Part shown: positions 2,238 through 17,288 of the stretch, piece after piece
Layout: every line of letters begins with the position of its first letter
How positions within the stretch are numbered: the first letter of the stretch is position 1
IMG/VR virus record: IMGVR_UViG_3300017781_000065
Location: 1 to 32,194 of that record
Strand: one strand, 5' to 3'
Source of the DNA: a virus
DNA: 32,194 nucleotides
Notes under the pieces: generated by a model
The model's database searches: none
Told to the model about the DNA's origin: nothing
What the model saw: only the letters and a program-made list of their open reading frames with translations
Program-made: the position numbers and the translations under genes

Positions 2238-3806
2238 ATGGAATACAACTTACCTAGTGAGTTGATCAAACGTTTAGACTTTGGTCAAACCGCTAAAGAA
2301 AAAGTAATTGCTGGCGTACATAAGCTAGCACAAGCCGTAAAAAGCACATTAGGCGCGTCGGGTAAATGCGTCATTTATGAAGATGCTCGCGGCAAGCCGG
2401 TCATAACAAAAGACGGAGTAACCGTTGCCCAAAGCGTAGTCTTATATGATCCGGTCGAAAACATAGGTGCCACCTTAATTAAGGAGGCAGCTAACAACAC
2501 GGTGAAAGAAGCAGGTGACGGTACCACTACGGCTACTGTCCTTGCTGAAGCACTGCTTAAAGAAGTAAACAAAGAAAAATACGCTGATGAATCTATTAGA
2601 GAAATCAAAGCAGGTATTAGTTCAGGCTTGGAGAAAGTTGTACAACATCTTGAAGACAGGGCTATTGAAGTTGAAGGGAACATGCTTAGCGCTGTTAGCG
2701 CGATTAGTTGCAATAATGATAAAGCCCTTGGATGCATTATTGCTGAAGCTTACCAAAAAGTAGGTAAGGATGGTGTCGTACTTATGGAGGAAGGTGACAC
2801 CGATGAAACGCATGTGGAGTTAGTTGACGGGGTGCAGTTTGATTGCGGGCTTACGTCGCCGCACTTCGTCACTAACACTGATAAACATCTAGCGGAACTA
2901 GATAATCCTTATGTACTCATAGTGACTAGTGAAATTCCTAATGTACGTAAAATACAAAATGTACTAGAACACGTCATTAAAAAAGGGCGCTCCTTACTTA
3001 TTGTGGCCCCAGTAGCACCAAGTGTTAAGTCTGCTCTTATGATGAATAAGGTAAAAGGTAATATTAAAGTTAATATTGTGGACTTACCAGGCTTTGGTCC
3101 TACTAAGAAAGACGCTACAGAGGATTTAGCTATTATGACCGGCACTACCGTTATTAATGAAGAACTAGGCGATGATTTAGATCTTATTACAGTAGAGCAT
3201 CTTGGTGAAGCTGAGTACTGTGTAACTAGCGATGCTAATACCGTTATAACGCTTGAAGAGGTGACAGATGAAATTAATGATCGCATTAAAACTGTTACCA
3301 CTAGAATATCAGAAGAGAAAGACGGTTTTATGAAAAAGAAACTTGAAGAACGCTTGGCAATGCTGTCAGGTTCTGTAGGCATTATTCAGGTAGGCGCTGG
3401 GTCAAAAGTAGAACTTAAAGAAAAGAAAGATAGGGTAGAAGATGCTATCTACGCTACCAAAGCGGCTTTACGAGAAGGCATTATACCTGGTGGAGGATCC
3501 GCATTGTGGTGGGCTTCTAAAAAAATTAAACCCACTAGCGTGGGTGAGGAGATACTCCTTGAGGCTATTAAGTCTCCGATGATGACTATCCTAGATAATG
3601 CTGGCCTTAGTGATATTAAGTGTGAAGGAGAGGATTACTGCGGTATAGATGTTATATCTGGTGAATGTACCGATATGATCGAGGCTGGAGTAGTAGATCC
3701 GGTTTTGGTAACAAAATCGGCGCTGAAAAACGCTGTATCAGTAGTATCAACTATTATATCAGCAGATTGTGTAATTTCAAACGCTAGAGCAGATGAAGGC
3801 TATTAA
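2238..3806 (+). CDS. groEL: Phage-encoded GroEL chaperonin (Hsp60)
   Basis: The 522-residue protein is a full-length group I chaperonin that would form the ATP-driven folding chamber. Visible family landmarks are STLGASGK (about 36-43), the nucleotide-binding TKDGVTVA (57-64, Asp59) and [15 protein letters not shown] (91-105, Asp94). The catalytic Asp402 lies in [13 protein letters not shown], and IIPGGG is at 415-420. These equal Asp52, Asp87 and Asp398 of E. coli GroEL, so ATPase activity should be intact. The apical domain is divergent: two positions I align with the hydrophobic E. coli Leu234 and Leu259 appear as Gln240 and Lys264. The C-terminus ends in Asp-Glu-Gly-Tyr and lacks the Gly-Gly-Met tail. 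It overlaps groES by 14 bases, suggesting translational coupling. The client is presumably a phage protein. Confidence 0.97.
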
Positions 3807-4050
3807 TGATTACATAATTGTAGACGCTGAGAAAGCAGGGCCTAAAAAAGTTGGTGGCTTACTTCTCACGGAAGAGCTAGACGAAAACAACAGATATATT
3901 AAAGCCAAGATTATTTCTACAGGTAATCTAGTTGAAGGCTTAAAGGATAACGATATTATATATTACGACAAACACGCTGGTCATGGTATAACTTGGGAAA
4001 GCACAATGTACTACGTGATTCGAGCAAGGGATGTTGTTTTAGTAGAGTAA
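3793..4050 (+). CDS. groES: Phage-encoded GroES co-chaperonin
   Basis: This 85-residue protein has GroES length and layout: a first strand [10 protein letters not shown] (5-14), a mobile-loop segment KVGGLLLTEEL (19-29) and the core strand KAKIISTG. Next come LKDNDIIYYDKHAG (about 50-63) and a C-terminal strand YYVIRARDVVLVE. The Leu23-Leu24-Leu25 tripeptide in the mobile loop corresponds to the hydrophobic tripeptide that docks onto GroEL. The gene starts inside the end of groEL, a 14-base overlap in a different frame. Bacterial operons normally place groES first. Its role is to cap the phage GroEL, or possibly the host GroEL as T4 gp31 does. Confidence 0.93.
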   Translation: MKAINDYIIVDAEKAGPKKVGGLLLTEELDENNRYIKAKIISTGNLVEGLKDNDIIYYDKHAGHGITWESTMYYVIRARDVVLVE

Positions 4051-4154: not shown

Positions 4155-4937
4155 ATGGAAAGATTTATTTACATTCGTAACGCTGAGGATGACGCGTATA
4201 TGAATACAATATCAAACTTCAGAGGCATGACCAACGAGTCGTCTGGCGCTGTAGTTTTATATTTCGAGTCAGCGATATCTTCAACAACAGAAACAGGAGG
4301 TGCGTATGACAAAATTACTTTAGCTGCATCAGATGGTAAAGAAAAAGAAGCTATGATGGCTATCGCATCTTCATTTGCTAGCGGTAAGCCAGGTTCAACA
4401 GTAGTTGTCGCTGATGACTTCGGTAAAGTTTCTTGTAACGACAATATCTCTACAAGCACTGGTGTTACTTCTATTGAATTAGCTGCTAACGGAGTTGCTA
4501 GTAATGTTATTACTTTAACTGACGATAGAACACTTACATCTGGAGAGTCTGGAGCTTTTGTAGTTTTAAACCACGCTACTAAGGTAATCACTCTACCTAC
4601 AGCAGCTGCTGGTTTAAATTACAGGATCATGTTCTTACAAGATACTGATGCTGCTTGTACAATCGTAGCTGGTACTGGTGATTGTTTCTTTGGAAGCATT
4701 GAGGTTGTAAGTTCTACAGACAACAAGTGTGCTAGTCAAAATATTACTCACGCTACGGCTATTGGTACTGTTACAAGCTATGACAATCTAGACTTTGACC
4801 ACGATACTACTACATTAGGTGGTAAAGCTGGCGACGTTGTAGAGCTAATGTGTGTAGACGCTACGGCTTGGCACGTTGATGCAACATTAACTGTAGATGG
4901 TAACCCATCTTCAATCGCAGTAATCAACGCTGGATAA
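4155..4937 (+). CDS. Beta-rich candidate capsid decoration or fibre protein
   Basis: The 260-residue protein is rich in Thr, Ser, Ala, Asp and Val and poor in Lys and Arg, as in all-beta virion proteins. The N-terminal part (1-90) contains RFIYIRNAEDD and an Ala/Lys helix followed by PGSTVVVADDFGKV. The remainder includes TLTSGESGAFVVLNHATKV (about 126-144), then YRIMFLQDTDA and AWHVDATLTVDGNPSS. The segment from about 126 onward resembles beta repeats in phage decoration and fibre proteins. It follows the chaperonin pair and a long repeat-bearing leader, consistent with high expression. I recognise the type from marine phages but no characterised homologue. Confidence 0.6.
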   Translation: MERFIYIRNAEDDAYMNTISNFRGMTNESSGAVVLYFESAISSTTETGGAYDKITLAASDGKEKEAMMAIASSFASGKPGSTVVVADDFGKVSCNDNISTSTGVTSIELAANGVASNVITLTDDRTLTSGESGAFVVLNHATKVITLPTAAAGLNYRIMFLQDTDAACTIVAGTGDCFFGSIEVVSSTDNKCASQNITHATAIGTVTSYDNLDFDHDTTTLGGKAGDVVELMCVDATAWHVDATLTVDGNPSSIAVINAG

Positions 4938-4940
4938 TCT

Positions 4941-5381
4941 ATGCGATTAACAGCGCAGGATCTGCGTGATATGAATATCCTTAAGTACTACAGGCTCACG
5001 CGTAAGTGGGCCTGTAAGACTTATGGATTAACTGATGCTGATCTAGAACTACTTATATATCTAGATCATAAGGGTAGATTTACCCGAAACGAATTTATCG
5101 AGGGTGCTTACACATATTCTTGGGATAAGAAAAGGTGGGAGAAACTCCGATCAGCTGGATGGATAGAAGTTTGGCGACATAGAAATAGAAAGAGTATTAA
5201 ATACTCTATATTTAAAACTTCATTCAAATGCTCCCAGTTAGTTAGTAGAATATACCGCATTTTACTAGGCGAAGAGGATATGCCAACTTCTGAGCGAAGT
5301 ATTTTTTACAACAACAAATCATACACGGATAAAGTCTATAACAAGGCTATAGACGATATGATTAAAGATAAAGATAGATAA
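4941..5381 (+). CDS. Winged helix-turn-helix (MarR-like) DNA-binding protein
   Basis: The 146-residue protein has the look of a MarR-like winged-helix domain over about residues 20-95. An LTDADLELLIYLDHKGRF helix-turn segment is followed by TRNEFIEGAYTYSWDKKRWEK as the likely recognition helix. The wing GWIEVWRHRN..KYSIFK comes next. The C-terminal helix KCSQLVSRIYRILLG would contribute to dimerisation. It probably binds DNA as a transcriptional regulator, possibly of late genes. It starts 3 bases after the preceding stop and its own stop overlaps the next ATG (TAATG), so it is co-transcribed with structural and lysis-type genes. Target sites are unknown; the AAAC heptads upstream are one candidate. 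Confidence 0.6.
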   Translation: MRLTAQDLRDMNILKYYRLTRKWACKTYGLTDADLELLIYLDHKGRFTRNEFIEGAYTYSWDKKRWEKLRSAGWIEVWRHRNRKSIKYSIFKTSFKCSQLVSRIYRILLGEEDMPTSERSIFYNNKSYTDKVYNKAIDDMIKDKDR

Positions 5382-8884: not shown

Positions 8885-9086
8885 AATTACTATTGGTAAG
8901 GACTATAAAAATGATGCTATGCATTATTCTGTTGGGCAAGAAGTATACGGCGGCCATACTATCTGCGATATATTAGAAGAGTCAGACAAATACTCTGTTT
9001 ATATTCGCAAAGATAAAAACGTCATACCTTGGAAAGACTTTAATAAGAACATGGCTATATCTGTAGAATATAACCTAGAATACTAA
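8862..9086 (+). CDS. Hypothetical protein, 74 residues
   Basis: This small protein contains a beta-like core, HYSVGQEVYGGHTICDILEE then YSVYIRKDKNVIPWKDF. The layout suggests a compact SH3-like or OB-like barrel, but I cannot assign one. The first two codons are both ATG (8862 and 8865), so the exact start is ambiguous. The gene overlaps its upstream neighbour and its stop overlaps the next ATG, which places it in one translationally coupled run with the tandem GroES-like gene. Confidence 0.45.
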   Translation: MMSQLIRKITIGKDYKNDAMHYSVGQEVYGGHTICDILEESDKYSVYIRKDKNVIPWKDFNKNMAISVEYNLEY

Positions 9087-9667
9087 TGCAATCGCTATAC
9101 GAGTATATTGTTGAACCTTTAGGAGGAAGATATAATAACACGGTAAAGTTTGATGATAAAGAGTTGATTTTAAATACAGAGATTTTTAATCATCAATATA
9201 TTAATAGAGAAGCAAGAGTTACATCCATACCTAGAATCTGTGATTCTGAAATAAAAGTCGGAGACATTATTGTATTACATCACAATGTTTTTAGAAGATG
9301 GCATAATGTAAAAGGCAAAGAGAAAAACAGTAGATCATTTCTTTCTGAGAATGAATATCTAGTATCACCAGATCAAATATATTTATATAAGAAAGATAAA
9401 GAATGGACATGCCCTGACGGATATTGTTTCGTGCAACCGATAAAAGACGGTTGTCATCTAACGTTAGATATGGAACGTCCGTTAGTAGGAATCGTTAAGT
9501 ATTCAGACGGCACAGTTAACGTTGGAGATTTAGTTGGTTTTAGACCAAATAGCGAATTTGAATTCGTGGTTGACGGCAAAAGAATGTATAGGGTTTTATC
9601 TAAATTTATTACAATTAAATATGAATATCAAGGAGACGAAGAAGAGTATAATCCAAGCTGGGCATAA
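9086..9667 (+). CDS. Tandem GroES-like double-barrel protein
   Basis: The 193-residue protein reads as two successive GroES-like folds. Barrel one has YEYIVEP (5-11), a loop containing KELILNTE (25-32), REARVTSIP (41-49), IKVGDIIVLHHN (56-67) and DQIYLYK (96-102). Barrel two has GYCFVQPIK (112-120), RPLVGIVKY (131-139), VNVGDLVGFRPNSEF (144-158) and YRVLSKFITIKYE (168-180). Spacing and hydrophobic pattern match the phage GroES at 3793-4050. The Leu-Ile-Leu in barrel one sits where the GroEL-docking tripeptide lies in GroES, whereas barrel two has only a short loop. It lies immediately upstream of the terminase genes. It may be an additional co-chaperonin or a structural protein that borrowed the fold. 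The fold call is by eye. Confidence 0.65.
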   Translation: MQSLYEYIVEPLGGRYNNTVKFDDKELILNTEIFNHQYINREARVTSIPRICDSEIKVGDIIVLHHNVFRRWHNVKGKEKNSRSFLSENEYLVSPDQIYLYKKDKEWTCPDGYCFVQPIKDGCHLTLDMERPLVGIVKYSDGTVNVGDLVGFRPNSEFEFVVDGKRMYRVLSKFITIKYEYQGDEEEYNPSWA

Positions 9668-9896
9668 AGCGGTTGAGGAATTAATCAAAGTAGCTAAAGA
9701 AGCTATTGTTGATTCAGATGATGACATATCAGCTGACAGACTCAAGAATGCCGCTGCCACGAAAAAACTTGCGATCTTCGACGCCTTCGAGATATTAAAC
9801 AGAATCCAAGAAGAAGAAAATCTTTTAGAAGGTCGAGCACCTGAAGAAAAGAAAGAGAGGGTATTTAAGGGTTTTGCTGAAGGTAGATCTAAATAA
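9621..9896 (+). CDS. Putative terminase small subunit
   Basis: I choose the ATG at 9621, preceded by an AT-rich run, giving 91 residues; the in-frame ATG at 9534 lies deep inside the preceding gene. The protein is mostly helical and acidic, with GHKAVEELIKVAKEAI (about 13-28), then AAATKKLAIFDAFEILNRIQEEE (about 48-70) and a basic C-terminus. It sits directly before the large terminase and is coupled to it by TAATG, the usual place of the DNA-recognition subunit. No clear helix-turn-helix is seen, so the assignment rests on size, helical content and position. Confidence 0.45.
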   Translation: MNIKETKKSIIQAGHKAVEELIKVAKEAIVDSDDDISADRLKNAAATKKLAIFDAFEILNRIQEEENLLEGRAPEEKKERVFKGFAEGRSK

Positions 9897-12121
9897 TGTA
9901 CGAGCAAACGTTATACAAAATAATAGAGCCTATAAAGAAAACTACTATTACTAGATTAAACAGAGGTAAGAAGTGGAACTATGGTTATAATAAAGAACAC
10001 GATATAGTTGTTCTTTCACGTAACGGAGTTATAGGCGATATATATGATATACAAGGATTGAAGATAGCTTTACCTAGAGCTCCAAAGGACGTGTTTAAGC
10101 ACGAGAAGAACAAATGGGTTAAAGCCGAGTATCCTAAAGAGCTCAAGCGTATTAAAAATATATTTGATTGGAAGACCTATCCAGACGAACAAAAAGACAA
10201 GTGGTACGACTATATTGACGAAGAATTCAAGCGAAGAGAAGAAGGGTTCTGGTTTACTAACAATGGAGTACCTACTTGGATTACAGGTACGCATTATATG
10301 TACCTACAATGGAGTAAAATTGACGTTGGTGCACCAGACTTTAGAGAAGCCAATAGACTATTCTATATATTTTGGGAGGCTTGTAAAGCCGACAAGAGAT
10401 GCTACGGAATGTGCTACCTTAAGAATCGTCGTTCGGGATTCTCTTTTATGAGTTCAGCAGAAACAGTTAACTTAGCCACTATATCAAGTGATAGTAGATA
10501 TGGGATCTTGTCTAAGTCTGGTGCCGATGCGAAGAAAATGTTTACGGATAAGGTAGTACCTATAAGTATTAACTATCCGTTTTTCTTTAAACCGATACAA
10601 GATGGTATGGATCGTCCTAAATCGGAGTTAGCATATAGGGTTCCAGCTAGTAAGTTTACTCGTAAGAAAATACAGAGTAACGAGCGGCTGGAAGAGATAG
10701 CAGGTCTAGACACTACGATTGACTGGAAAAATACTGGTGATAATAGTTACGATGGTGAAAAATTAAATTTACTAGTACACGACGAGAGTGGTAAGTGGGA
10801 GAGACCTGATAATATACTAAACAACTGGCGAGTTACTAAAACCTGTTTAAGGTTAGGTAGTAGAATCGTTGGTAAGTGCATGATGGGTTCAACCAGCAAC
10901 GCATTAGATAAGGGTGGAGATAATTTTAAAAAGCTATACTATGATTCTGACGTATCAAGACGAAATGCTAATGGACAAACGAAGTCTGGGCTTTATTCTC
11001 TCTTTGTCCCAATGGAATGGAACTATGAAGGATTTATTGACGAATACGGACTTCCAGTATTTGATAATCCAAGTGATGGAGAACGACTGGGACCAGACGG
11101 TGAATTAATAGATGTAGGTGTAGTAACCAACTGGGAAAACGAAGCGGAAGGACTGCGTGATGATCAAGACGCGTTAAACGAGTTTTACAGACAATTTCCT
11201 AGAACTGAAGAGCACGCGTTTAGAGATGAAACTAAAAATAGTATATTTAATCTAGTTAAAATATACGAACAGATAGATTATAACGAAGGGAGTAGACACG
11301 CGGCGCATACTACTGTTGGAAGTTTCGGTTGGGTGAATGGCATAAAAGATACTCAAGTAGTATTTCATCCAGATCCTACAGGGAGATTTAAAGTTAGTTG
11401 GGTGCCTCCGACACACTTACAAAATAGACAATTTGTAAAAAATGGTATTAGATTCCCGGGTAATGAGCATGTTGGGGCCTTTGGTTGCGACAGCTATGAC
11501 ATTAGTGGTACTGTTGATGGCCGCGGTTCTAAAGGCGCTTTGCACGGATTAACAAAATTCTCCATGGAAGACGCGCCTTCAAGCACGTTCTTCCTAGAGT
11601 ACATAGCAAGACCACAAACCGCAGAGATGTTCTTTGAGGACGTTCTAATGGCATTAGTTTTTTACGGGATGCCTTTACTTGCGGAGAACAATAAACCTCG
11701 TCTATTGTATTATTTACGCCGTAGAGGATACAGAGGATACAGTATGAATAGACCGGACAAAACCTGGAAAAAACTATCGGTTGCAGAAAAAGAAGTCGGT
11801 GGTATACCAAACTCAAGCGAAGATATTAAACAAGCGCACGCTGCTGCTATTGAGATGTATATACAGAGTCACGTTGGTCATTTGGGTGACGGTAATTATG
11901 GTACTATGTACTTTAACGAAACGCTAAATGACTGGGCTAGATTTGATATAAACAAGAGAACTAAACATGACGCATCAATAAGCACTGGTTTAGCTATCAT
12001 GGCTTGCAACAGGCACTTATACACACCGAACGCTAAAATAGAAATACAACCTTTGAATTTGAATATATCTAAATACAATAATAAAGGATTTAACTCCAAA
12101 ATAATAAACACAAATGGCTGA
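9896..12121 (+). CDS. terL: Terminase large subunit
   Basis: The 741-residue protein is the DNA-packaging motor, with an N-terminal ATPase and C-terminal nuclease. It has an atypical Walker A-like CYLKNRRSGFSFMSSAE (173-189) lacking the usual GKT. The Walker B segment is LNLLVHDESGKW (290-301) with Asp296-Glu297. A coupling-type TSNAL stretch follows near residue 333. The nuclease half begins at about 525 with GAFGCDSYDISG (Asp532 and Asp535), then DGRGSKGALHG, and a late acid in KRTKHDASISTGLA (Asp692). The NRRSGFS and GCDxYDIS signatures resemble crAss-like and related podoviral terminases. Its 3' end overlaps the portal gene by 8 bases. Confidence is high from motifs and gene order. Confidence 0.92.
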   Translation: MYEQTLYKIIEPIKKTTITRLNRGKKWNYGYNKEHDIVVLSRNGVIGDIYDIQGLKIALPRAPKDVFKHEKNKWVKAEYPKELKRIKNIFDWKTYPDEQKDKWYDYIDEEFKRREEGFWFTNNGVPTWITGTHYMYLQWSKIDVGAPDFREANRLFYIFWEACKADKRCYGMCYLKNRRSGFSFMSSAETVNLATISSDSRYGILSKSGADAKKMFTDKVVPISINYPFFFKPIQDGMDRPKSELAYRVPASKFTRKKIQSNERLEEIAGLDTTIDWKNTGDNSYDGEKLNLLVHDESGKWERPDNILNNWRVTKTCLRLGSRIVGKCMMGSTSNALDKGGDNFKKLYYDSDVSRRNANGQTKSGLYSLFVPMEWNYEGFIDEYGLPVFDNPSDGERLGPDGELIDVGVVTNWENEAEGLRDDQDALNEFYRQFPRTEEHAFRDETKNSIFNLVKIYEQIDYNEGSRHAAHTTVGSFGWVNGIKDTQVVFHPDPTGRFKVSWVPPTHLQNRQFVKNGIRFPGNEHVGAFGCDSYDISGTVDGRGSKGALHGLTKFSMEDAPSSTFFLEYIARPQTAEMFFEDVLMALVFYGMPLLAENNKPRLLYYLRRRGYRGYSMNRPDKTWKKLSVAEKEVGGIPNSSEDIKQAHAAAIEMYIQSHVGHLGDGNYGTMYFNETLNDWARFDINKRTKHDASISTGLAIMACNRHLYTPNAKIEIQPLNLNISKYNNKGFNSKIINTNG

Positions 12122-14486
12122 GTCGATATATGTTGATTTTCCTTCCCAAGCAGTCTCTGATTCAGAGAAAACGAGTTCAGAGTATGGACTTAAGGTAGGG
12201 CGCGCGATAGAACAGGAATGGTTTAGGGACAATCTCAATAATAAATTTACTAGTAATCAAAATGATTTTAGACGATTAAGGTTATATGCTAGAGGAGAAC
12301 AACCTATACAAAAGTACAAAGACGAATTATCAATTAACGGTGATTTATCATATCTTAATCTTGACTGGAAACCCGTACCAATTATACCTAAGTTTGTTGA
12401 TATAGTAGTGAATGGAATGTCTGAACGTATGTTCAATGTTAAATGTTATTCACAAGATCAATATGGGGTATCGAAACGCACTAAGTACATGGAATCCATC
12501 ATGCGCGATATGCAAAGTAAGAAGTTTAATGAAGAAGCTTCTAGATTACTAAGTGTAGATTTAACAGAATCAGATGCGGAAAAATTACCTGGCTCTAAAG
12601 AAGAACTAGAACTTCACATGCAGCTTGAATACAAGCAAGCTGTAGAAATAGCAGAAGAGCAAGCTATAAACGTTTTATTGGAAGGCAGCAATTACGATCT
12701 CGTGAGACGTAGAATGCTATATGATCTCACTGTTCTAGGAATTGGCTGTGTGAAGACGAGTTTTAATTGGAGCGAAGGAGCTACTGTAGAATACGTAGAT
12801 CCAGCTAATATAGTTTATTCATATACTGAATCTCCGTATTTTGACGATATATATTACATAGGAGAAGTTAAGACAATACCTATCAATGAACTCGCTAGAG
12901 AATTTGATGCGTTAACCGAGAGTGAGATAAAGGAAATACATAAAAATTCTAGTAAAAGATATACTTCAGGGCGTCGCATACAAGACGTCGATAAAAACAA
13001 GGTCCAAGTATTATACTTTAATTATAAAACTCATATGAATGATGTTTATAAAATTAAAGAAACAAAAACAGGTGGCTATAAGGCTATTGAAAAAACAGAT
13101 GAATTTAACCCACCAGAAAATAAGACTGGTGGATATGGCAAACTACAAAGAGCCGTAGAGTGTGTGTTTGAAGGCGCGATGATTCTAGGGACAGATAAAC
13201 TACTAAAGTGGAAGAAGAGTGAAAACATGATGCGTAGTAAATCTGACTTTAATAAAGTTAAGATGAATTATTCGTTAATAGCGCCTAGGATGTATGAGGG
13301 TAGAATTGAATCTCTAGTCGGTAGAATCACTGGATTTGCTGACATGATTCAGTTGACACACTTAAAGTTACAGCAAGTTATGTCTCGCATGGTTCCTGAT
13401 GGAGTATATCTTGATGCTGATGGACTTGCTGAAGTTGATTTAGGCAATGGTACTAATTACAATCCGCAAGAAGCGCTTAATATGTTCTTCCAAACTGGTA
13501 GTGTAATTGGTAGGTCGTTCACTCAAGATGGTGATCCTAATCCAGGTAAAATACCTATTCAGCAGATATCTAACGGTGCTGGGCAAAATAAGATTGGTAG
13601 TTTAATAACCACGTACAATTACTATCTTCAGATGATACGTGACGTAACTGGACTTAACGAAGCAAGAGACGCTAGTCTACCTGATCCTAAGTCTTTAGTT
13701 GGTATACAGAAGATGGCTGCGGCTAATTCAAATGTAGCTACAAGACACATATTACTTGGATCAATGTTTTTAACAGCTGAGATGTGCGAAGCTTTATCTA
13801 TGAGGATATCTGATATACTAGAGTACTCACCGACTGCAGATGCTTTCGTTCAAGCTATTGGGTCACATAACGTAGCCACTCTTAAGGAGATGTCAGAGTT
13901 GTATTTATATGACTTTGGAATATTCATTGAGCTTGAGCCAGATGAAGAGGAAAAACAAATGCTTGAGAATAACATTCAAACGGCGCTGGCGCAAGGTTTA
14001 ATAGATCTTTCTGACGCGATAGACATAAGAGAGGTTAGAAATGTTAAGTTAGCAAATCAACTATTAAAAATAAAACGTAAGCAAAAAGAAGAGCGTGACC
14101 AAAAAATCCAACAACAGAACATGGAAGCGCAAGCACAAGCAAATGCGCAAACTCAACAAGCCTCTGCTCAAGCTGAGATACAAAAAAATCAGGCAAAAGC
14201 TCAACAAGACATGCAACTAGAGTCTGTTAAATCAGATACAAAGTTAGCTTACTTAAGAGAGGAGGTTAGACTAAAGAAAGAGTTGATGCAATTTGAGTTT
14301 GATCTTAACGAACAACTTCGTAACCAAGAGCGCTCCGATACTAAGGACTTAGAGCAAATGAAAGAAGATGGTAAGAATGTGAGAGAAAAAGCTAAGATAG
14401 ACAGTAAAAGATTTGAATCCGCAGGTAATGATACTATTGGAAGCGGAATGGGAGTAAGTAATTTTACTCCACAAATAGGAAAATAA
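12114..14486 (+). CDS. Portal protein
   Basis: The 790-residue protein should form the dodecameric ring at the head vertex through which DNA enters and leaves. The N-terminal part has YARGEQPIQKYKDELS and LNLDWKPVPIIPKFVDIVVN (about 58-98), which I recognise from crAss-like phage portals. A wing/clip region follows, then the crown helices around ATRHILLGSMFLTAEM. The last 150 residues (about 640-760) are a long Gln/Ala/Lys/Glu coiled coil, a large barrel-type extension. It lies between terminase and scaffold-like genes, as expected. Strong call from sequence character and order. Confidence 0.9.
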   Translation: MAESIYVDFPSQAVSDSEKTSSEYGLKVGRAIEQEWFRDNLNNKFTSNQNDFRRLRLYARGEQPIQKYKDELSINGDLSYLNLDWKPVPIIPKFVDIVVNGMSERMFNVKCYSQDQYGVSKRTKYMESIMRDMQSKKFNEEASRLLSVDLTESDAEKLPGSKEELELHMQLEYKQAVEIAEEQAINVLLEGSNYDLVRRRMLYDLTVLGIGCVKTSFNWSEGATVEYVDPANIVYSYTESPYFDDIYYIGEVKTIPINELAREFDALTESEIKEIHKNSSKRYTSGRRIQDVDKNKVQVLYFNYKTHMNDVYKIKETKTGGYKAIEKTDEFNPPENKTGGYGKLQRAVECVFEGAMILGTDKLLKWKKSENMMRSKSDFNKVKMNYSLIAPRMYEGRIESLVGRITGFADMIQLTHLKLQQVMSRMVPDGVYLDADGLAEVDLGNGTNYNPQEALNMFFQTGSVIGRSFTQDGDPNPGKIPIQQISNGAGQNKIGSLITTYNYYLQMIRDVTGLNEARDASLPDPKSLVGIQKMAAANSNVATRHILLGSMFLTAEMCEALSMRISDILEYSPTADAFVQAIGSHNVATLKEMSELYLYDFGIFIELEPDEEEKQMLENNIQTALAQGLIDLSDAIDIREVRNVKLANQLLKIKRKQKEERDQKIQQQNMEAQAQANAQTQQASAQAEIQKNQAKAQQDMQLESVKSDTKLAYLREEVRLKKELMQFEFDLNEQLRNQERSDTKDLEQMKEDGKNVREKAKIDSKRFESAGNDTIGSGMGVSNFTPQIGK

Positions 14487-15722: not shown

Positions 15723-17288
15723 ATGGCTAATGGAAACATTACGGCTGGAGGTTTGTTGAATAGCACGCCTGCTTCACAGCAGACTACGCTAACTTCAAAC
15801 TATCTAGATCTAGCGTCTGCAGCTAACCAAGGCTGGGCGCAACAATACTTACCAGATCTAATGGAGAAGGAAGCTGAGGTATTCGGTAACAGAACAATCT
15901 CAGGATTTCTTTCTAAAATTGGGGCTGAAGAGTCTATGACGGCTGACCAAGTTGTTTGGTCTGAGCAAGGTAGACTACACCTTTCATACAAAGGTAATGT
16001 TCTTTCAGGACAATCTGCTGGTGGTAATGTAGTATCAGGTGGTATTATCGAGATCACTCACGATATCGATGGTAACGCTCAAACTACAAATCACGGTATT
16101 CGTGTAAACGATACAGTTGTTATTGCTAGTGCAGGAGGTGTATGTAAAGCTATCGTTACTGAGGCGGTGCGTTCGAACAACCAAATTGAGGTTGCTCCTT
16201 ACGGATTTGCATCTCTTAACGCTGCGAGTATTACTGAAGAAACTTCTCAAGCGTTAACTATCATGGTTTACGGTTCTGAGTTTAAGAAAGGTACTGCTTA
16301 CTCATTACACTCAGACATCTCTGCTGCTACTGCAACAGAAAACTCAAGAGGACATAATGAGCCACAGTTCAAGTCTTTCATGAACAAGCCGGTAATCCTT
16401 AAGGATTTCTACGAAGTATCAGGTTCTGACGCTTCTCGTATTGGTTGGGTTGAGGTTGCTTCTGAAGAGGGTCAATCAGGTTACTTATGGTACCTAAAGG
16501 CTGCTTCTGATACGCGTGCTCGTTTCAACGATTACTTAGAGATGGCTATGATTGAAGGTACTGTTGGCGGTGTCGCTGACTCTGGTGCTGTATCAGGTAT
16601 CGTTTCATCTGCAAGTTTAATTGACAACGCGTTTGATGACACTGACTCTGGCGTACGTTTTGGTACTCAAGGTTTATTTGATGCTATCGAGCAAAGAGGT
16701 AATATCACTGCTGGTTTAGCTCAAACAAACTCTGCAGGTTACAACTTACAAGAGTTTGATGATATCTTAGCTGAATTTGATAAGCAGGGTGCGATTGAAG
16801 AGAACATGATGTTCCTTAACCGTGGCACATCTCTTGCTATTGATGACATGCTTGCGGGTATGAACTCATACGGTAACGGTGGTACTTCTTACGGAGTATT
16901 TGAGAATGATGAGAACATGGCACTTAACCTAGGTTTCTCTGGGTTCCGTCGTGGATCTTACGACTTCTACAAGTCTGACTTCCGTTACTTGAATGATCTA
17001 TCTACTCGTGGAGGTATTAACGCTGCTAACGCTGCTGAAGCGATTCGCGGTGTTATCGTTCCAGCAGGTACATCTACTGTATATGATCAGCAGTTAGGTA
17101 AGAACCTTAAGCGTCCTTTCCTACACGTTCGTTACAGAGCTTCTCAAACTGACAATCGTAAGATGAAGACATGGACTACTGGTTCTGTTGGAGCTAGTAC
17201 TTCAGCGCTTGACGCTATGCAGCTTCACTTCTTATCTGAGCGTTGTTTGATTACTCAAGGAGCAAACAACTTCATGTTATTGAAGTAA
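15723..17288 (+). CDS. Major capsid protein
   Basis: The 521-residue protein follows portal and scaffold and is predicted to form the icosahedral shell with an HK97-like fold. Segments such as YLPDLMEKEAEVFGNRTISG (about 42-61) and QVVWSEQGRLHLSY (about 76-89) are ones I associate with major capsid proteins of crAss-like and marine Bacteroidota podoviruses. There are no membrane segments. Codon use differs from its neighbours: of 21 Arg codons I count 15 CGT, 1 CGC and 5 AGA, whereas the portal and tail genes mainly use AGA and AGG. That fits selection for very high expression. It is followed by a strong terminator hairpin, which isolates it as the end of a transcript. Confidence 0.88.
   Translation: MANGNITAGGLLNSTPASQQTTLTSNYLDLASAANQGWAQQYLPDLMEKEAEVFGNRTISGFLSKIGAEESMTADQVVWSEQGRLHLSYKGNVLSGQSAGGNVVSGGIIEITHDIDGNAQTTNHGIRVNDTVVIASAGGVCKAIVTEAVRSNNQIEVAPYGFASLNAASITEETSQALTIMVYGSEFKKGTAYSLHSDISAATATENSRGHNEPQFKSFMNKPVILKDFYEVSGSDASRIGWVEVASEEGQSGYLWYLKAASDTRARFNDYLEMAMIEGTVGGVADSGAVSGIVSSASLIDNAFDDTDSGVRFGTQGLFDAIEQRGNITAGLAQTNSAGYNLQEFDDILAEFDKQGAIEENMMFLNRGTSLAIDDMLAGMNSYGNGGTSYGVFENDENMALNLGFSGFRRGSYDFYKSDFRYLNDLSTRGGINAANAAEAIRGVIVPAGTSTVYDQQLGKNLKRPFLHVRYRASQTDNRKMKTWTTGSVGASTSALDAMQLHFLSERCLITQGANNFMLLK

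Follow-up and report, generated by a model that had tools for sequence, protein, structure and literature searches.

What folding equipment does a phage possess when it carries groEL and groES side by side, in an order opposite to that of bacterial operons, and which proteins would that equipment serve? The window (the whole stretch of DNA analysed, 32,194 bases held as a virus record in IMG/VR) comes from a marine phage of Bacteroidota-type bacteria. An earlier note on this DNA had described a complete chaperonin pair and proposed virus-specific folding; both genes are indeed intact, but the pair is not the whole equipment, because a third component, a predicted tandem co-chaperonin encoded at 9086-9667, had been missed.

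The phage GroEL and GroES proteins

The groEL gene (2238-3806, forward strand, ATG at 2238 and TAA at 3804-3806) encodes a 522 aa group I chaperonin that belongs to the Cpn60 family over its full length, as seen in its matches to Pfam Cpn60_TCP1 (PF00118, E 2.6e-57, 195 bits, cut-off 34.3), PHROG 5725 (groEL, E 1.4e-133) and the NCBIfam GroEL subfamily PRK00013 (483 against a cut-off of 397); the stricter equivalog cut-off of TIGR02348 is not reached. Alignment to Salmonella GroEL confirms the full-length reading with its three catalytic aspartates, D52, D87 and D398 in E. coli numbering, and the remaining ATP-pocket residues examined are conserved as well, except for P33, which is replaced by A. 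Aligned with enterobacterial GroEL, the proteins of the window clade have no GGM tail at the C-terminus and are altered at apical (Y199L, Y203H, L234Q, L259K) and inter-ring positions (R452M, E461S, S463I, V464K). Because several of these apical residues bind GroES or substrate in E. coli (Y203H, L234Q and L259K in the window protein), lid binding by the phage GroEL is not to be assumed. Judged from these replacements, the phage protein may choose other substrates than enterobacterial GroEL does and may form a different number of rings, and the non-conserved inter-ring residues are compatible with a single ring but are no proof of one.

The groES gene (3793-4050, forward strand, ATG at 3793 and TAG at 4048-4050) encodes a single-domain co-chaperonin of 85 aa. 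Its place in the GroES/Cpn10 family follows from a match to Pfam Cpn10 (PF00166, E 1.3e-8, 35.2 bits, cut-off 21.1) together with an aligned mobile-loop motif, GGLLLT, that contains the hydrophobic tripeptide. The roof hairpin is shortened, most of it being absent.

Gene order and overlap

The two genes share 14 bases (3793-3806) in different frames, just as the earlier note had read them, and this overlap makes it probable that translation of groES is coupled to that of groEL. Gene order in related phage genomes, a check which that note had proposed, was examined in 80 relatives from IMG/VR whose GroEL is about 70-91% identical. Every one has groEL followed by groES on the same strand, and the genes overlap in 77, mostly by exactly 14 bases; in a more distant relative on a contig from a metagenome-assembled genome (MAG; L096, 52% identity) groES also starts within the end of groEL. 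Three relatives have an extra ORF of 142-152 aa that begins at the overlap site and separates the two genes (L010:3220-3660, L042:1892-2320, L080:5637-6095). Its product has an HxD...H pattern and its best Pfam match, 2OG-FeII_Oxy_3, scores 19.3 bits, short of the cut-off of 27, so that a dioxygenase is possible. Downstream of groES, 79 of the 80 relatives have a gene for a 146-aa protein (4941-5381 in the window), which sometimes overlaps groES and often lies 0.4-1.8 kb from it across variable cargo such as that at 4155-4937 (found in 8/80 relatives).

In the Bacteroidota bacteria sampled, groES precedes groEL and 3-129 bases separate the two genes, in agreement with the bacterial arrangement against which the phage order had been called unusual. 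That contrast with bacteria holds; the order is nevertheless a lineage trait, old and real, and not unique, because groEL is directly followed by groES also in the Flavobacterium elemo phages and in Manatee Spring phage MW202828. In Panino the order is groEL, one small gene and a GroES match, and in phi38:1 groES comes first.

Origin and conservation of the pair

A tree built from 67 GroELs recovers the window clade as monophyletic (SH-aLRT 99), on a long separate branch outside the clade of cellular Bacteroidota, within which the GroEL of Bacteroides phage DAC16 falls; because branches are long, the deeper placement of the window clade is unsure. Both genes are under purifying selection, with dN/dS against close relatives of 0.09-0.12 for groEL and 0.05-0.11 for groES. 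Among the related contigs checked, all those no shorter than 61 kb contain GroEL, and the seven related contigs that lack it are fragments of 30-38 kb. The separate clade, the conserved pair, purifying selection at a dN/dS of about 0.1 and presence in these long relatives support a virus-specific chaperonin system, as had been proposed.

Were the pair merely a recent acquisition from a bacterium, or an assembly chimera, nothing about it would be virus-specific. Among solved GroEL structures the nearest in sequence is that of a reconstructed ancestor of the Bacteroidetes group, and for this reason the ultimate origin of the phage protein may be bacterial; a recent capture or a chimera, however, is rejected by the long branch outside bacterial GroEL with its support of 99, which leaves no tight placement within any one bacterial genus, and by an arrangement common to 80 separate contigs, and it is further opposed by the purifying selection on both genes and by the presence of GroEL in all genome-length relatives checked. 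We give this explanation almost no credence. Phage contigs of the window group are also binned within two public MAGs (L092, L093 and L096, from genomes G001 and G002) that are labelled Maricaulis and Sphingobacteriales.

The pair is thus real but of a known sort, GroEL and its gene order being known from other phages. Nishimura et al. described GroEL from related marine Flavobacteriaceae phages in 2017; their 'group 2' contains 36 genomes that are related to phi38:1 and carry it (PMC5332604).

A gene for a predicted tandem co-chaperonin beside the terminase genes

The third gene (9086-9667, forward strand, 193 aa; PHROG 13932, E 3.2e-21) encodes what AlphaFold modelling and Foldseek searches indicate is a tandem double-GroES co-chaperonin resembling Cpn20, with an N-terminal GroES-like domain (residues 1-105, 9086-9400, identified from fold hits, a profile, motif counts and the loop motif ELILN) and a C-terminal GroES domain (residues 107-180, 9404-9625, identified with hhalign and from Pfam matches of homologues). 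In a full-length model built from 59 sequences of the window clade (pLDDT 78, pTM 0.72), residues 29-37 are flexible, at the place of the mobile loop in GroES, and the hydrophobic tripeptide of the N-terminal half lies within this predicted loop. Searched against the PDB with Foldseek, the model aligned over its full length to its top two matches, 7ekq_R and 7ekq_Q (E 1.3e-4 and 5e-4, TM about 0.5), tandem-length chains of one complex, of which chain R is named 'Cpn20 co-chaperonin subunit'; we take 7ekq to be the Clp complex of the Chlamydomonas chloroplast with its Cpn11/20/23 cap. The ranks below are dominated by GroES, Cpn10 and gp31, and enzymes with a GroES-like fold appear lower in the hit lists. 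The N-terminal half modelled alone (101 sequences, pLDDT 86) had only GroES, Cpn10 or gp31 among its first 27 PDB matches (best E 5e-3); as with the full-length model, these fold matches are of moderate TM near 0.5. The phi18:3 homologue, whose structure was predicted independently, matches the window model over its full length with a TM of 0.72 at 19% identity.

By sequence, the two halves differ in how clearly they resemble GroES. The C-terminal half qualifies as a GroES domain of Cpn20 type: it matches cellular GroES (hhalign E 3.6e-8), and the Pfam Cpn10 cut-off is passed by the homologous halves of phi38:1 and phi18:3, though not by the window protein itself. The N-terminal half qualifies by fold, with modest support from sequence; it matches a mixed profile of all phage and cellular GroES collected (E 4.3e-5), and in an earlier version of that comparison none of 150 column shuffles equalled its score, and no significant match was obtained with a profile of cellular GroES alone. 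Narrow profiles of the window clade gave no significant homology for either half, and wider alignments were needed. Nor did a profile of the tandem alignment match any PDB sequence, or the Panino protein as query anything in IMG/VR. The halves do not match each other significantly by profile, so that a recent internal duplication as the source of the protein is unsupported. In the window clade the long canonical mobile loop of the C-terminal half is missing or short, and phi18:3 has SLIYIPEDNKEK there. Taking fold and sequence together, we consider it very probable that the protein consists of two GroES domains in tandem.

The C-terminal half of the PHROG 13932 profile also matches the ordinary GroES genes of most of 395 Bacteroidota genomes; among the matches listed from these, full-length ones occur on just two contigs of G001, one of which is a known phage contig. 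Three viral proteins in BFVD (A0A516LJK4, A0A516L046 of 304 aa, and A0A516LTQ1) are full- or near-full-length fold matches to the tandem protein, one of them with about 100 extra residues, and the family may accordingly extend more widely.

The gene, which the first reading of the window had passed over, adjoins the terminase genes on their upstream side. It lies directly before them in 60 of the 60 relatives whose terminase loci have at least 900 bases upstream, and related phages annotate the gene at this place as 'co-chaperonin GroES', a label of the annotation pipelines that hides the fusion. Counted from groEL instead, it was found in 76/80 loci, and of the four without it three have at most 2.5 kb of sequence downstream, leaving one (L060) as a real or distant exception. 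Between it and the gene for the terminase large subunit (9896-12121, forward strand; PHROG 6681, E 3.6e-171) lies a conserved, helical-looking ORF of 91 aa (9621-9896, forward strand) with more than 150 matches among the fetched loci, a candidate small terminase by its position. This ORF shares 47 bases with the 3' end of the tandem gene, where the tandem protein has a near-invariant C-terminal tail, and because of the overlap the conservation of that tail need not reflect lid function. The portal gene (12114-14486, forward strand; PHROG 6547, E 4.4e-141) and a gene for a 521-aa virion structural protein (15723-17288, forward strand; PHROG 13704, E 8.8e-86) follow the terminase.

Such a setting could also suit a protein that is GroES-like in fold and yet no lid, for example a connector or a terminase accessory recruited as a part of the virion or of the packaging apparatus. 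Its position directly before the terminase in every testable relative agrees with this, as do the use of GroES-like folds in the enzymes lower in the hit lists and several near-invariant residues in an insert that follows the GroES-like part of the N-terminal half. A packaging part would not, however, be expected to show a hydrophobic tripeptide in a predicted flexible loop, a C-terminal half that is a Cpn10 domain by Pfam cut-off in two related families, or regular company with a second co-chaperonin gene, and the usual place of the small terminase is filled by the separate 91-aa ORF, which disfavours the tandem protein for that role. We regard a virion or packaging function as improbable.

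Co-occurrence of the three components

All three components, with a GroES of one domain, are found together in phi38:1, the elemo phages, Panino and MW202828. Both co-chaperonins, single and tandem, occur without a GroEL in four members of the Pachyviridae (phi18:3, phi13:2, phi19:3 and phi46:3), and with them the idea that the tandem protein always accompanies a phage GroEL was dropped: single and tandem proteins form the constant unit and GroEL is optional. In all 8 of the isolate or complete phage genomes checked that carry the tandem protein there is also a single-domain GroES, including the four without GroEL. In Tenacibaculum phage Gundel_1, which has a related terminase, no GroEL, single GroES or tandem protein was found. 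Given the few independent lineages, the co-occurrence is suggestive and no statistical proof.

A proposed folding machine with a mixed lid

The identity of the genes, their conservation and order, and the co-occurrence of the three parts are observed. On these we base a model of a three-protein group I chaperonin system in which the divergent GroEL is joined by a single-domain GroES, whose translation would be coupled to that of groEL, and by the predicted tandem double-GroES. We infer that the single and double co-chaperonins would assemble into one mixed lid on the phage GroEL, in which seven GroES domains, the number that a GroEL ring needs and that is reported for algal Cpn10/Cpn20, could be supplied, for example, by three doubles and one single or by two doubles and three singles. 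In relatives without a phage GroEL, both co-chaperonins would act on that of the host. The mixed lid would help large head proteins to fold, as gp31 of T4 does for gp23. Head proteins are the likely clients because the tandem gene lies near the genes for terminase, portal and the 521-aa virion protein, the last of which is a possible major capsid protein and candidate client; the earlier suggestion of the capsid or the tail protein as client of the window chaperonin has the same conditional standing. On balance, we lean slightly towards a phage folding machine with a mixed single/tandem GroES lid, probably for head proteins.

Alternatively, the tandem protein could self-assemble into a separate dedicated lid, used late in infection for the capsid protein, leaving the single GroES for other clients without any mixing of the two. 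The tandem gene indeed lies beside head genes and apart from the groEL-groES pair, the single and tandem genes of phi18:3 are likewise about 10 kb apart, homo-oligomers of Arabidopsis AtCpn20 are functional in vitro (PMC4242682; PMC5780408), and in T4 a capsid protein has a phage-specific lid of its own, gp31 (PMC6318259). Against this, an all-tandem lid would set an even number of domains on a seven-fold barrel, and the constant presence of a single GroES, even where there is no phage GroEL, is explained more simply by joint use. We therefore consider a dedicated lid unlikely, if a good deal less so than a packaging function.

No report of phage tandem co-chaperonins was found in the literature covered, which does not include the main viral-chaperonin survey by Marine et al. 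(2017, ISME J); within that coverage the tandem GroES architecture was described from plastids only. The tandem protein is the part likely to surprise chaperonin specialists. It is a puzzle, so far studied in plants, algae and apicoplasts, for what reason GroES domains are fused in pairs in plastids and in what way a lid with an even number of domains fits a seven-fold barrel; cultured phages with single and tandem lids (phi38:1, phi18:3, elemo) would permit direct genetic tests.

Comparison with known systems

The GroEL-related chaperonin gp146 of Pseudomonas phage EL, phage-encoded like that of the window, is reported to act without encapsulation and not to interact with E. coli GroES (PMC7185714). 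The window, unlike EL, encodes cognate lid genes, and their presence argues against such action without a co-chaperonin. T4 gp31 lacks the roof loops, which is believed to help it accommodate the capsid protein gp23 (PMC6318259); the window GroES resembles it in its reduced roof, and gp31 is among the fold matches of the tandem protein, but gp31 is a single domain that works with host GroEL, T4 having no GroEL of its own.

Another close system is that of Cellulophaga phage phi38:1 (Callevirus) and the 'group 2' phages (PMC5332604). It resembles the window in its terminase, portal and structural genes, which are related, and in combining GroEL and a single GroES with a tandem co-chaperonin whose gene immediately precedes the terminase. 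In phi38:1, by contrast, the order is groES, one ORF and then groEL, next to DNA polymerase genes, and its GroEL is only about 38% identical to that of the window. Methylated phi38:1 GroEL is reported from both infected cells and free-virion samples (PMC13288928), the latter reflecting either carry-over or a virion-associated chaperonin. The elemo phages (Elemovirus) and MW202828 have adjacent groEL and groES and the tandem gene before the terminase, as in the window; in the elemo phages, however, the pair lies far from the head genes and on the other strand than the genes around it, and the GroEL is only distantly related.

In architecture the closest parallel is with plastids. Cpn20/Cpn21 carries two GroES domains head to tail in about 190-200 aa, alongside a single-domain Cpn10 (PMC5780408), and plants, algae and the apicoplast thus resemble these phages in combining a tandem chain with a single-domain co-chaperonin; a plastid-type Cpn20 is also the best PDB fold match of the phage protein. 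Unlike the plastid protein, that of the window clade is without a long mobile loop in its C-terminal half and is of phage origin, and it shows no significant sequence match to plastid Cpn20 over the whole length. We accordingly claim a likeness of predicted architecture, not kinship by descent. Chlamydomonas CPN20 or CPN23 forms functional hetero-oligomers of seven GroES domains with a single-domain protein (reviewed in PMC5780408), and one Arabidopsis Cpn10 is active only together with Cpn20 (PMC4242682). The single and tandem equipment of the phages is the same in kind, and we infer that it may form similar hetero-oligomers. It is conceivable, though we would put it somewhat short of even, that tailed phages independently of plastids evolved a Cpn20-like double co-chaperonin and with it a mixed, asymmetric seven-domain lid specialised for capsid proteins, working on phage or host GroEL. 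If so, a widespread group of marine phages would have a dedicated folding chamber, and the tandem architecture of the plastid co-chaperonins would have arisen a second time, in viruses.
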